The notes under the pieces: generated by a model
What the model was told of the DNA's origin: nothing
Database searches by the model: none
The model's input: only the letters and a program-made list of their open reading frames with translations
Assembly (NCBI RefSeq): GCF_002093625.1
Contig: NZ_MRWD01000048.1
Span: 1-43,690, forward strand
Source of the DNA: Rouxiella silvae
Lineage (GTDB): Bacteria; Pseudomonadota; Gammaproteobacteria; Enterobacterales; Enterobacteriaceae
Direction of reading: 5' to 3'
Length of the DNA: 43,690 bases
Position numbers and translations under genes: made by a program
Shown here: positions 25,242 to 38,592 of the stretch, piece after piece
How positions within the stretch are numbered: the stretch's first letter is position 1
Layout: every line of letters starts with the position of its first letter

Positions 25242-26909
25242 TCAAACGCAGGCCAGCATTATCTGCCGGTTGACCCGCTCTCTCAGCGTCAGTAAAAACT
25301 CGGCCTGGCGCGGATACTGCTTAAAAGTAATGCGCATCCCGGCCAGGTTATCGATTAACCCTTCAACCTCTTCACGGCTAGTCAATGTTTCGAGTAGCTG
25401 CAACGCGCGCAGGTCCTGCAGCGCCTCGCGCAACACCAGTAAACGCAGCGACTCAATCGGCTCATAATCTTCACCCGGATAGACAACAAAAAGATCGCCA
25501 GATGGAAAAGCCCCCTGCCCGTCGGTGATGGCGAAAGGATCGAGGTGTTCCAACGAATGTCCGCTGTTATAAAAGTTGAATCCCCAGTGTAAAAAACCGC
25601 TTATCGAATAAAGATAAAGCTGTACGCCTAAAATTCGGTTGCGATAAGACGGCATGGCAAAGAATCGGTTAGCCACCGCCAGTTTCTGAACGCAGCAGTA
25701 ATAGGTCCATAAATTGGGCACCTGATTGCTCAAAAACGGTTCGATATGGTCACTGGCGGTGACCGGATTTTCTACCAGCCCTTGTTGATAAAATTCATAG
25801 TCAGACAGCGCATCTAGCACCGGAAAACCGGCGATCAGTGGGCGGATAAGGTTATTGGCGCGACGATAGGCATCAATATCTGCCATTTTTGGCTCATCGG
25901 AGACGTGGAACCAGGTGTTTTTTTCAAGCCCTTTATGTCGCAGGAAATCACAAAGTGTGGGCAAAAAAGCGTGCAGAAAATCGCGATATTCGGCACCGTG
26001 GGCATCCGTGTGCCAGCCGAATACGGGGTGCAGTTCCCCCTCTTTTTCGATTAAAATTTTGGGTGCGTGATGCGCCCCCCACTGGGTAAAGAGATGAGAA
26101 ATTTCAAAGGTCGTGATCCCCAACTGCTGGCACAGCGAAACCCACCTTTCAAGCCTATTGAAATCAAAATGATAGACTCCACCAGCATCCTGCTTGACCC
26201 CCACCAGCTGCACGGTGGTGCGCTCGCCGCCGAGTGCCGTGTCCAGCGGCGGCGTGAAAACCGGCGTGAGGATCATATTGACGCCATTTTTTACCGCGCA
26301 GCGAACAAAATTTTCGACCGTGCGCCACCAAACCTCACTAAACACCTCGGTGTGATAAACATCAGCCAGACAGTCGGCGTGCAACCATTCGGTATGAAGC
26401 AGCTTTTGTGGCGGTAAAGCACAAAGCAAAATTTCAATTTCCACCGCCTTTTCTGCCAAAACCTGCTCAGTGGCCACGTCAATAACCCGCAAGTTAATGC
26501 TGAATGTTCCGCCAGGCAGGCTTTCTTTTGCGGGCATCAGCGTTAACCACAGGCTGCCGTAATAGTTACCGTTCACAAAGAAAGTATTATTCTTCAGTGG
26601 CATTAGCGGGTCAGGAAATAATCCTGGCTCAGTGGTGAGATAATCGTCATCAGTCGTTGTATAACAAGGAAAAAGGCTGGGAACATGACGAACCTGGCGC
26701 ACTTGAATATATTCAGACAGCGGGCCATCAAGCTCATAACGCAATTGTCTGCGTGGTTCATCATCTTCTTGTTGTAAGCAATAGACACACTGAAAAGAGA
26801 GGCTTTCATTTCTTAACAATGAAAGTTTATTAATGGTATTAAACACCGGCAATGATTTTTGATGAAATATTTTTTCCAAGCTATGAGTGAACGACAGTGA
26901 CAGCAGCAT
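25242..26909 (-). CDS. DUF4091 / GH123-like glycoside hydrolase
   Basis: A 555-aa protein with an N-terminal beta-sandwich region (about 1-165), a TIM-barrel core and a C-terminal DUF4091-like part. FHVSDEP carries an adjacent Asp-Glu pair (D338-E339), matching the catalytic pair of family GH123 beta-N-acetylgalactosaminidases, where substrate-assisted catalysis uses Asp and Glu side by side. No signal peptide is evident, so it is probably cytoplasmic and acts on imported glycosides. It diverges from the transporter operon at 27396, which leads into galactosamine-pathway genes, supporting GalNAc-glycoside cleavage. The Shine-Dalgarno is poor. Assignment to GH123 rather than to another DUF4091 group is inferred. 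Confidence 0.8.
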   Translation of the reverse strand: MLLSLSFTHSLEKIFHQKSLPVFNTINKLSLLRNESLSFQCVYCLQQEDDEPRRQLRYELDGPLSEYIQVRQVRHVPSLFPCYTTTDDDYLTTEPGLFPDPLMPLKNNTFFVNGNYYGSLWLTLMPAKESLPGGTFSINLRVIDVATEQVLAEKAVEIEILLCALPPQKLLHTEWLHADCLADVYHTEVFSEVWWRTVENFVRCAVKNGVNMILTPVFTPPLDTALGGERTTVQLVGVKQDAGGVYHFDFNRLERWVSLCQQLGITTFEISHLFTQWGAHHAPKILIEKEGELHPVFGWHTDAHGAEYRDFLHAFLPTLCDFLRHKGLEKNTWFHVSDEPKMADIDAYRRANNLIRPLIAGFPVLDALSDYEFYQQGLVENPVTASDHIEPFLSNQVPNLWTYYCCVQKLAVANRFFAMPSYRNRILGVQLYLYSISGFLHWGFNFYNSGHSLEHLDPFAITDGQGAFPSGDLFVVYPGEDYEPIESLRLLVLREALQDLRALQLLETLTSREEVEGLIDNLAGMRITFKQYPRQAEFLLTLRERVNRQIMLACV

Positions 26910-27395
26910 AATAGGTAGACTCGCATCGGTAATTAAAAGAGATGATGATTAAACCTGCCATCTTTTTATTAAATATACAATATGCGAGATGAGAGAGGAT
27001 CTCATTAATAATGTTGGAGCGCGACAGTCGTCTACCTAAAGCGAACGAAAGTCGTTTTTTTTTGTTTATTTACATCACAAAAATGAAAGATTTATCCCGA
27101 TGCACAATAAAAGCTTTTCTATTCCCTGTTGTAGTGCAGGGTTTCTGCCCGCCAGGCCTCGACAGTAAAGCCTCGACACCGCTTGCCGTCAGGAGAAGCA
27201 CCGATAAATGTTATCGAAAAGTTACAAGAAAAACAGCTTTCATCTTTCACTTTTAACCTTTCGATTTTAACAACATCGAAAGCAATTCGCACTGATTTAG
27301 GGCAAAAGTGGTGATATTGACACACCGAAATTTAGGGGATAGAAAGAATGCACGTTACGTAAATGTTTATTTTTCGAACGACCAAGGGGATGTCA
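26910..27395. promoter_or_regulatory. 486-base divergent regulatory region of the galactosamine-type cluster
   Basis: No gene is supported. The region lies between divergent hydrolase and transporter genes and must hold both promoters. It has several CGAAA/TTTCG elements (near 27046, 27214, 27326, 27373) and the 25-bp palindrome at 27258-27282. A nine-base direct repeat GCCTCGACA occurs at about 27156 and 27170. A frame at 27011-27256 has no recognisable product. Confidence 0.55.
27258..27282. promoter_or_regulatory. Candidate operator for the AgaR-like regulator (transporter side)
   Basis: CTTTCGAT (27258-27265) and ATCGAAAG (27275-27282) form a perfect 8-bp inverted repeat with a 9-base spacer, 25 bp in all. 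The same outer arms and total length recur before the AgaR-like gene (34223-34247). Confidence 0.55.
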
Positions 27396-37703: not shown

Positions 37704-37737
37704 CTGTGGTTTAACATTGCCAACACAGGGAGTTTCT

Positions 37738-38592
37738 ATGTATTTAGTCTCTAACCGCGAAATGCTTAACAAAGCGCAGCGCGAAGGCTACGCGGTTCCG
37801 GCGTTCAACGTGCACAATCTCGAGACGGTGCAGGTGGTTGCCGAAACCGCCGCGGAATTGGAGTCGCCGGTGATCATGGCCGGCACGCCGGGCACCTTTG
37901 ACTATGCCGGTACCGATTATCTGGTGGAGATCTGCCAGGCGGCCGCACGCCGCTACAATCTGCCAATGGCACTGCATCTCGATCACCACGAAGAGATGAA
38001 TGACATTGAAGATAAGGTGCGTCAGGGGATCCTGTCAGTAATGATCGACGGTTCACACCTGCCGTTTCGGCAAAATATTGCACTGGTTTTACAGGCGGTA
38101 AAACTGTGTCATCGCTACGGTGCCAGCGTGGAAGCCGAGTTAGGCAGGCTCGGCGGACAGGAGGATGATCTAGTTGTAGATTCGGCCGACAGCTTCTTTA
38201 CCGATCCGCTGGCGGCACGTGAGTTTGTCGAAATCACCGGTATTGACTCGCTGGCGGTGGCCATAGGATCGGCACACGGGCTGTATCAGGGGGATCCAAA
38301 ACTGGATTTCGATCGTCTGGAGAAGATCCGCCAGCAGGTTGATATTCCGCTGGTGTTGCACGGCGCCTCGGGGATCCCAGAAGCGATGGTAAAACGTGCC
38401 ATCACACTCGGCGTATGCAAAGTTAACGTTGCTACCGAACTTAAAATTGCCTTCGCCGACGCGGTTAAAGGATATTTCAATCAACATCCAGACGCCAACG
38501 ATCCGCGTAAATACATCGTTCCGGGCAAGCTGGCGATGAAGGCGGTGGTGGCCGAGAAAATCCGTATTTGCGGCAGCGCAGGACGACGTTAG
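37738..38592 (+). CDS. kbaY: Class II tagatose-1,6-bisphosphate aldolase, catalytic subunit
   Basis: A 284-aa zinc aldolase (E. coli KbaY 286 aa) that splits tagatose-1,6-bisphosphate into dihydroxyacetone phosphate and glyceraldehyde-3-phosphate. Catalytic D82 and zinc ligand H83 lie in ALHLDHHEE; the other zinc ligands are H180 (IGSAHG) and H208 (VLHGASG). [10 protein letters not shown] and VNVATELK are family-specific. The start at 37738 has AGGGAG (37727-37732) 5 bases upstream; the frame runs up to a TTG at 37717. It ends the kbaZ-agaS-kbaY operon. The bases up to 38717 hold no clear terminator. Confidence 0.95.

Follow-up and report, generated by a model that had tools for sequence, protein, structure and literature searches.

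Gene content of the cluster

We analysed a 43,690-nucleotide stretch of Rouxiella silvae DNA (contig NZ_MRWD01000048.1), here called the window. At 25242-38592 it holds a cluster in which aga-type enzymes of galactosamine catabolism stand beside an ATP-binding cassette (ABC) sugar importer, a ROK-family sugar kinase and a GH123-type hydrolase; it quite probably encodes a pathway, under AgaR control, for the use of oligosaccharides with a terminal, beta-linked N-acetylgalactosamine (GalNAc). The hydrolase gene runs leftward. Divergent from it, genes for a solute-binding protein, two permeases, an ATPase, a Gfo/Idh/MocA protein and the ROK kinase run rightward, and after a gap of 339 bases agaR, kbaZ, agaS and kbaY follow in the same direction. 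Intergenic gaps within each run are short, which makes it likely that the genes form two rightward operons beside a single leftward gene. A previous sequence-only reading, made without database searches, had listed the hydrolase, ABC importer, Gfo/Idh/MocA, ROK, AgaR, KbaZ, AgaS and KbaY genes, and each is borne out in its place by a profile match. All cluster genes score over the family cut-off of Pfam or NCBIfam profiles, AgaS by a narrow margin; neither the hydrolase nor the binding protein reaches a curated NCBIfam name. The features are:

25242-26909, minus strand: predicted exo-beta-N-acetylgalactosaminidase of GH123 type (Group 4-like), 555 residues; Pfam GH123_cat 8.3e-110
27258-27282, no strand: predicted AgaR operator CTTTCG-N13-CGAAAG in the divergent region between hydrolase and binding protein, from sequence
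27396-28676, plus strand: periplasmic solute-binding protein of CUT1 type; SBP_bac_1 4.7e-39, Sec-like signal by eye
28680-29741, plus strand: ABC permease of MalF/UgpA type; BPD_transp_1, UgpA-like but under the UgpA model cut-off
29752-30627, plus strand: ABC permease of MalG/UgpE type; BPD_transp_1, GlcU/UgpE-like but under those cut-offs
30679-31800, plus strand: ATPase of MalK/UgpC type; ABC_tran, TOBE_2 and OB_MalK, NF008653 451.8 bits (cut-off 432)
31815-33143, plus strand: Gfo/Idh/MocA protein; GFO_IDH_MocA 5.5e-19, start possibly near 31845
33161-34063, plus strand: ROK sugar kinase related to NagK, predicted GalNAc 6-kinase; ROK 1.1e-64, NagK structure 7p7i 1.5e-75
34223-34247, no strand: predicted AgaR operator CTTTCG-N13-CGAAAG upstream of agaR, from sequence
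34403-35173, plus strand: AgaR repressor, DeoR family; NF040755 376.1 bits (cut-off 260), 45% to E. coli AgaR
35224-36522, plus strand: KbaZ, non-catalytic subunit of tagatose-1,6-bisphosphate aldolase; TIGR02810 (agaZ_gatZ) 676.9 bits (cut-off 568.8), 56% to E. coli KbaZ
36519-37703, plus strand: AgaS, predicted galactosamine-6-phosphate deaminase/isomerase; TIGR02815 (agaS_fam) 536.4 bits (cut-off 529.2), 41% to E. coli AgaS
37717-38592, plus strand: KbaY, class II tagatose-1,6-bisphosphate aldolase; TIGR01858 (tag_bisphos_ald) 483.0 bits (cut-off 443.55), 58% to E. coli KbaY

The binding protein belongs to an open reading frame (ORF) listed from 27363, and is taken here from an internal ATG that precedes the Sec-like signal. 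Plasmids gave no relatives of it at 1e-60. The ROK kinase had been called NagK-like; its relatedness to NagK stands, as the 7p7i match indicates. With the NagK model NF009835 it scores 287.5 bits, under the cut-off of 380.

The GH123-type hydrolase

The best matches of the hydrolase in the Protein Data Bank (PDB) are 8k2l (3.4e-161, 540.6 bits) and 8k2n (1.6e-128, 432.7 bits), both named there as monosaccharide-releasing beta-N-acetylgalactosaminidase. In the same PDB sequence search it scores 203.0 bits with the Niabella enzyme, 26.8 with 5l7v and 13.2 with 5fqe; the last two we take to be BvGH123 and CpNga123. Judged by these bit scores, the Group 4 structures appear to be closer kin of the hydrolase than the classical GH123 enzymes are. 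From their names, 8k2l and 8k2n should be the Group 4 structures NgaLy and NgaP2 (PMC11087588).

The available text of that paper (Sumida et al., PMC11087588) reports that cleavage by Group 4 enzymes is confined to oligosaccharides whose terminal sugar is beta-GalNAc, apart from weak activity (4.7%) on the beta-p-nitrophenyl glycoside of N-acetylglucosamine in one of four enzymes (NgaP2), and suggests substrate-assisted catalysis through the 2-acetamido group of the substrate. The sources of its characterised Group 4 enzymes are Bacillota and Actinomycetota, and the paper assigns the Niabella enzyme to Group 4 too. The adjacent Asp-Glu pair picked out by the sequence-only reading falls at D338 and E339, and all 11 homologues aligned with the window protein keep it unchanged. 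A beta-GalNAc-releasing activity is accordingly predicted from likeness to these enzymes. The protein begins about 10 residues ahead of the region aligned with 8k2l and has no signal peptide recognisable by eye, so that it is presumably cytoplasmic. Two plasmid records carry relatives of the hydrolase; one of these, on a Paenibacillus cellulositrophicus plasmid (L128), sits amid fatty-acid and electron-transfer genes.

Promoters and AgaR

CTTTC is said to have been given as the AgaR motif by Leyn and co-workers in 2012. There are seven copies in the 486-base gap between the hydrolase and binding-protein genes and six in the 339 bases ahead of agaR, as against six in the 2536 bases of the 13 other gaps of at least 60 bases. 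First-order Markov samples reach these counts of 7 and 6 in only 5 and 12 of 5000 cases. The E. coli agaR-kbaZ and agaA-agaS gaps are similar, with six and seven copies (5/5000 and 15/5000 Markov samples); the kbaY-agaB gap has none. Across related loci (see below) at least four copies were found in all 32 cluster promoter regions, where base composition predicts 0.7-1.1, these regions being related by descent. The 32 comprise 18 hydrolase-binding protein and 14 ROK-agaR regions, the window included; ROK-agaR gaps of 14-17 bases in two Pantoea loci were left out.

The 5.28 Mb genome contains the exact palindrome CTTTCG-N13-CGAAAG just twice, once per cluster promoter; this spacing was picked out post hoc. 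It is present in 6 of the 18 hydrolase-binding protein regions and 9 of the 14 ROK-agaR regions. A looser palindrome with spacing N4-24 is not enriched genome-wide (four forward-strand places against six for a control), and when up to two mismatches are allowed the count in the window is near chance (4 against a mean of 2.06, with 17 of 100 shuffles reaching 4). The exact N13 form at the two cluster promoters is thus the only notable one. AgaR itself is an orthologue by the NF040755 cut-off. Together these promoter elements suggest a single AgaR regulon spanning both cluster promoters, with predicted AgaR binding at 27258-27282 and 34223-34247.

Distribution and rearranged relatives

A scan of a species-genome collection with the hydrolase gave 159 relatives, of which 80 were kept: 17 loci that look enterobacterial (L002-L018) and 63 others. 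The 17 are from Rouxiella, Cedecea, Serratia (nine), Citrobacter, Pantoea (two), two further Enterobacterales and one genome labelled Chryseobacterium (L006). The last carries the enterobacterial version of the cluster and is probably a mixed or mislabelled assembly. The hydrolase gene is rare: it was found in 3 of 394 genomes of an Enterobacterales sample, and in 5 of 40 related genomes, all five in the window's own genus (5 of its 6 genomes), the window genome being counted each time. The Rouxiella badensis locus matches the window by blastn in pieces at 77-84%. By megablast the cluster had no counterpart in an E. coli collection, and its single plasmid match was 64 bases long. With agaS by itself as query, a search for distant matches aligned E. 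coli agaS to 12% of the query length.

Fifteen of the 17 enterobacterial loci are sufficiently long to be informative, and in all 15 the binding protein, both permeases, the ATPase, ROK and AgaR lie beside the hydrolase; the other two are on short contigs that show the hydrolase and binding protein only. An orthologue of the Gfo/Idh/MocA protein (76-92%) is present in 13 of the 15, and the two Pantoea loci have instead a nearby Gfo protein that is 24% identical. The layout is not due to chance, and the enterobacterial loci are related by descent. This bears on the idea that the ABC, GH123 and ROK genes serve a sugar unrelated to galactosamine, with the aga genes as a separate operon. The two runs are 339 bases apart and probably have their own promoters, as that idea would have it, but the CTTTC arrays at both promoters, the constant company of ABC, ROK and AgaR genes and the beta-GalNAcase nature of the hydrolase relatives leave it very improbable.

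The hydrolase gene is divergent from the binding-protein gene and adjoins it in 17/17 enterobacterial loci. Among the 63 non-enterobacterial loci, five (L033, L036, L046, L051, L052) have a binding protein and two permeases ahead of the hydrolase on the same strand, and in L067 permeases alone precede it. At 1e-5 these 63 loci yielded no relatives of AgaS, KbaY, KbaZ or ROK, with profiles that were weak and lacked some orthologues; AgaR gave one, Gfo one and NagA two. In that search the hydrolase ORF was lost in 8 of the 63 loci and was a fragment only in L068, and KbaY was searched for with a profile made of just the window sequence.

These arrangements also speak to a second alternative, in which the importer takes in free GalNAc (or galactosamine, GalN), like AgaP in Shewanella, and the hydrolase salvages sugar from occasional glycosides. 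A kinase adjoining the importer suits import of an unphosphorylated monosaccharide, and Shewanella does combine a permease with a kinase. Against this stand the pairing of hydrolase and binding-protein genes throughout the enterobacterial loci, the importer genes ahead of the hydrolase in the non-enterobacterial loci just named, and the general habit of CUT1 importers, which mostly take oligosaccharides. We consider this alternative unlikely.

In Pantoea (L018, L118; one genome) the ABC-ROK-AgaR block adjoins, on the far side of the locus's own Gfo gene, an E. coli-type aga set made up of a second AgaR (82%), KbaZ (74%), AgaA (68%), AgaS (67%) and KbaY (80%). No phosphotransferase system (PTS) genes were recognised beside this set among ORFs of at least 120 residues. 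The front end is thus shared with the window, and the downstream set is a different one that includes a GalNAc-6-phosphate deacetylase. The Pantoea agaA-agaS gap is 1285 bases long (L118 5413-6697), compared with 350 bases in E. coli, and holds an ORF with RDKSRRYG-like repeats. A NUDIX gene lies 3' of kbaY both in the window (38718-39137) and in Pantoea (L118 8920-9384), the two being 35% identical; this may be coincidence.

In Serratia the ABC cluster continues from AgaR to AgaS and KbaY with no KbaZ between, in 9/9 loci, and KbaZ is a single copy at another place in all five genomes searched. In the two of these genomes whose KbaZ surroundings were read, another AgaR lies ahead of KbaZ and PTS genes lie after it (AgaVWEF in L117, AgaE alone recognised in L110); the gaps before that AgaR have 5 and 6 CTTTC in 491 and 482 bases. 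In Serratia, PTS and ABC uptake routes seem to share downstream enzymes.

The proposed pathway

In the pathway that we favour, the CUT1 importer would take in an intact oligosaccharide, from which the cytoplasmic Group 4-like GH123 enzyme would cut off the terminal GalNAc. The ROK kinase would convert this to GalNAc-6-phosphate, and a deacetylase encoded elsewhere, most likely NagA, would yield GalN-6-phosphate. AgaS would deaminate and isomerise this to tagatose-6-phosphate, a phosphofructokinase encoded elsewhere would phosphorylate it again, and KbaYZ would split the bisphosphate into two triose phosphates. By way of CTTTC-type sites, AgaR would repress both its own operon and the two divergent promoters. 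KbaZ is cited, in the available part of a review, as a proposed tagatose-6-phosphate kinase (PMC12118421).

GalN had been put forward alongside GalNAc. The hydrolase relatives are thought to use the 2-acetamido group, and in one Pantoea genome the block adjoins kbaZ-agaA-agaS-kbaY without PTS genes; for these reasons GalNAc is favoured over GalN. A deacetylase is then needed. In E. coli, agaS but not agaI is required for use of GalNAc and GalN, and nagA substitutes for agaA, according to the available text of PMC3668189; since NagA can replace AgaA there, NagA acting in trans is the simplest way to fill this step. Elsewhere in the genome, genes for three NagA-like proteins lie on contigs C97, C112 and C51. 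The three scores are 538, 257 and 202 bits, of which 202 falls short of the model cut-off. One of the additional NagA-like genes lies near RpiR-like and ROK genes and, by eye, a NanA-like aldolase gene, and the other lies with NagB-like and ROK genes (L113 and L115, contigs C112 and C51).

Several observations weigh against the pathway. By family profile matches, no deacetylase is among the cluster ORFs, and in a genome scan the exact N13 palindrome is not near any NagA-like gene; gaps near these genes have 0 CTTTC (C97), 0 and 2 (C112) and 3 in 509 bases (C51). The best solved relatives of the binding protein are distant and named for other ligands, and a different hexosamine might suit the ROK kinase better. 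Within the cluster we recognised neither an outer-membrane porin nor a secreted enzyme. The hydrolase relative on the P. cellulositrophicus plasmid (49%) has no sugar genes annotated around it. Finally, the proposed scheme has no step for the Gfo/Idh/MocA protein.

The earlier claim of PTS independence is upheld within the cluster, where family profile matches reveal no PTS genes, and less secure for the cell. The genome encodes one AgaS and, outside the cluster, one PTS permease of the EII-Sor type, so a GalNAc-importing PTS may be present elsewhere. As for uptake, cleavage and phosphorylation in series, comparative evidence favours an aga-type route with an ABC importer, a ROK kinase and a seemingly cytoplasmic beta-GalNAcase; the Gfo/Idh/MocA protein fits nowhere in that earlier scheme.

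The Gfo/Idh/MocA protein

The presence of a Gfo/Idh/MocA protein was correctly noted before; its subfamily is an unassigned one, and the known GalNAc route needs no dehydrogenase. An EKP motif, an HDxD motif and four cysteine positions are invariant in 12 aligned family members, five of them enterobacterial. The solved proteins closest to the family profile are 6z3b and 6z3c, presumably R. gnavus NanOx, and YjhC is sixth in the list; only about the first half of the profile is covered. Identity with GH109 NAD-dependent alpha-GalNAcase was rejected, as the 2ixa match covers only about 150 N-terminal residues. Identity with YjhC was likewise set aside, similarity extending over profile positions 11-217 of 422 rather than the full length. 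An AlphaFold model made with 12 close homologues as input has a mean predicted local distance difference test score (pLDDT) of 43.2 and a predicted template modelling score (pTM) of 0.39.

Twenty-six plasmid records contain homologues with 34-56% identity, and the surroundings were read in eight of these; among 274 class-level genomes the only match at 1e-50 was the window's own. Four of the eight contexts have amino-sugar genes. Both Deinococcus plasmids have genes for a BadF-type kinase, a SIS protein, a class II aldolase and PfkB, to which one adds GH114 and GH4 and the other a GH4 homologue annotated as hypothetical; Thermus has NagA-like and GH4 genes, and Thermomicrobium has SIS, NagA and beta-hexosaminidase genes. 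The remaining four (three Streptomyces and one Paenibacillus) have no amino-sugar genes, and each lies beside ABC importer genes. In Deinococcus psychrotolerans (L120 67-7290) the genes for a binding protein, BadF-type kinase, SIS, class II aldolase, PfkB, GH114, GH4 and Gfo stand in a row that looks like a polygalactosamine catabolic operon. The run on the other Deinococcus plasmid (L121) resembles it, except that a further binding-protein gene stands where GH114 would be.

One extension, compatible with the proposed pathway, is that several GalN(Ac) glycosides are handled, with GH123 acting on beta-linked ones and the Gfo protein using NAD-recycling redox chemistry on alpha-linked or modified ones. 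The Deinococcus, Thermus and Thermomicrobium contexts fit this, as does the place of YjhC in the top six PDB matches to the profile: according to the available text of PMC7315737, YjhC recycles its NAD+ cofactor, and the authors compare its reaction with that of GH4. The half of the contexts without amino-sugar genes, the partial reach of the YjhC match, the missing orthologue in the two Pantoea loci and the low pLDDT of the model tell against it, and we regard the extension as a tentative possibility. A broader form is that the protein performs a conserved NAD-recycling galactosamine-glycoside step across phyla, shared by the present pathway and the plasmid-borne Deinococcus GH114/GH4/SIS/class II aldolase cluster, and opening GalN(Ac) glycosides or modified sugars that resist ordinary hydrolases. 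The plasmid contexts, shared motifs and likeness to YjhC, a thin basis, make this conceivable and rather doubtful.

Relation to known systems

The E. coli aga/gam cluster (AgaR; kbaZ-agaVWEF-agaA-agaS-kbaY-agaBCDI) shares with the window cluster AgaR, KbaZ, AgaS, KbaY and the CTTTC copies in two promoters. It has PTS genes and agaA, which the window cluster lacks, whereas the latter adds the ABC importer, ROK kinase, beta-GalNAcase and Gfo/Idh/MocA protein. The Shewanella GalNAc pathway (AgaP, AgaK, AgaA-II, AgaS and auxiliary AgaO), in the available text of PMC2996990 and PMC12118421, is likewise PTS-independent, with a dedicated kinase and AgaS; it has a permease where the window has a CUT1 ABC importer, and the available text of PMC2996990 names no GH123 enzyme. 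LnbABC of gut bacteria, an ABC-type system likened here by its description, is named among GalNAc transport systems in the available text of PMC5583593. PTS-independent GalNAc use is therefore not a novelty, as AgaP/AgaK and LnbABC precede it, and the cluster is best described as an enterobacterial variant of a GalNAc/GalN pathway that was known already, not as a system of a new kind. What is new is the arrangement of mostly known parts, with one unassigned enzyme among them. Titles and abstract openings that we searched included none describing this cluster, though it may have been published, Leyn et al. 2012 and RegPrecise (Serratia) being unchecked.

The Group 4 beta-N-acetylgalactosaminidases (PMC11087588) are related through the closest solved structures of the hydrolase and the Asp-Glu pair. 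The terms "gene cluster", "ABC transporter", "Pseudomonadota" and "Proteobacteria" are absent from the main text of that paper. If our reading is correct, Group 4-type enzymes would gain a pathway and a regulatory context that this main text does not mention, and Enterobacterales would have exchanged a PTS for an ABC importer and kinase while retaining related downstream enzymes and the type of promoter element. The unassigned Gfo/Idh/MocA subfamily would become a testable candidate for amino-sugar chemistry.

Other sugar clusters in the window

Two more sugar ABC clusters lie at 12538-24004, of CUT2 type by family matches; the second of these includes genes for a ribokinase-like protein and a MurR/RpiR-family regulator.

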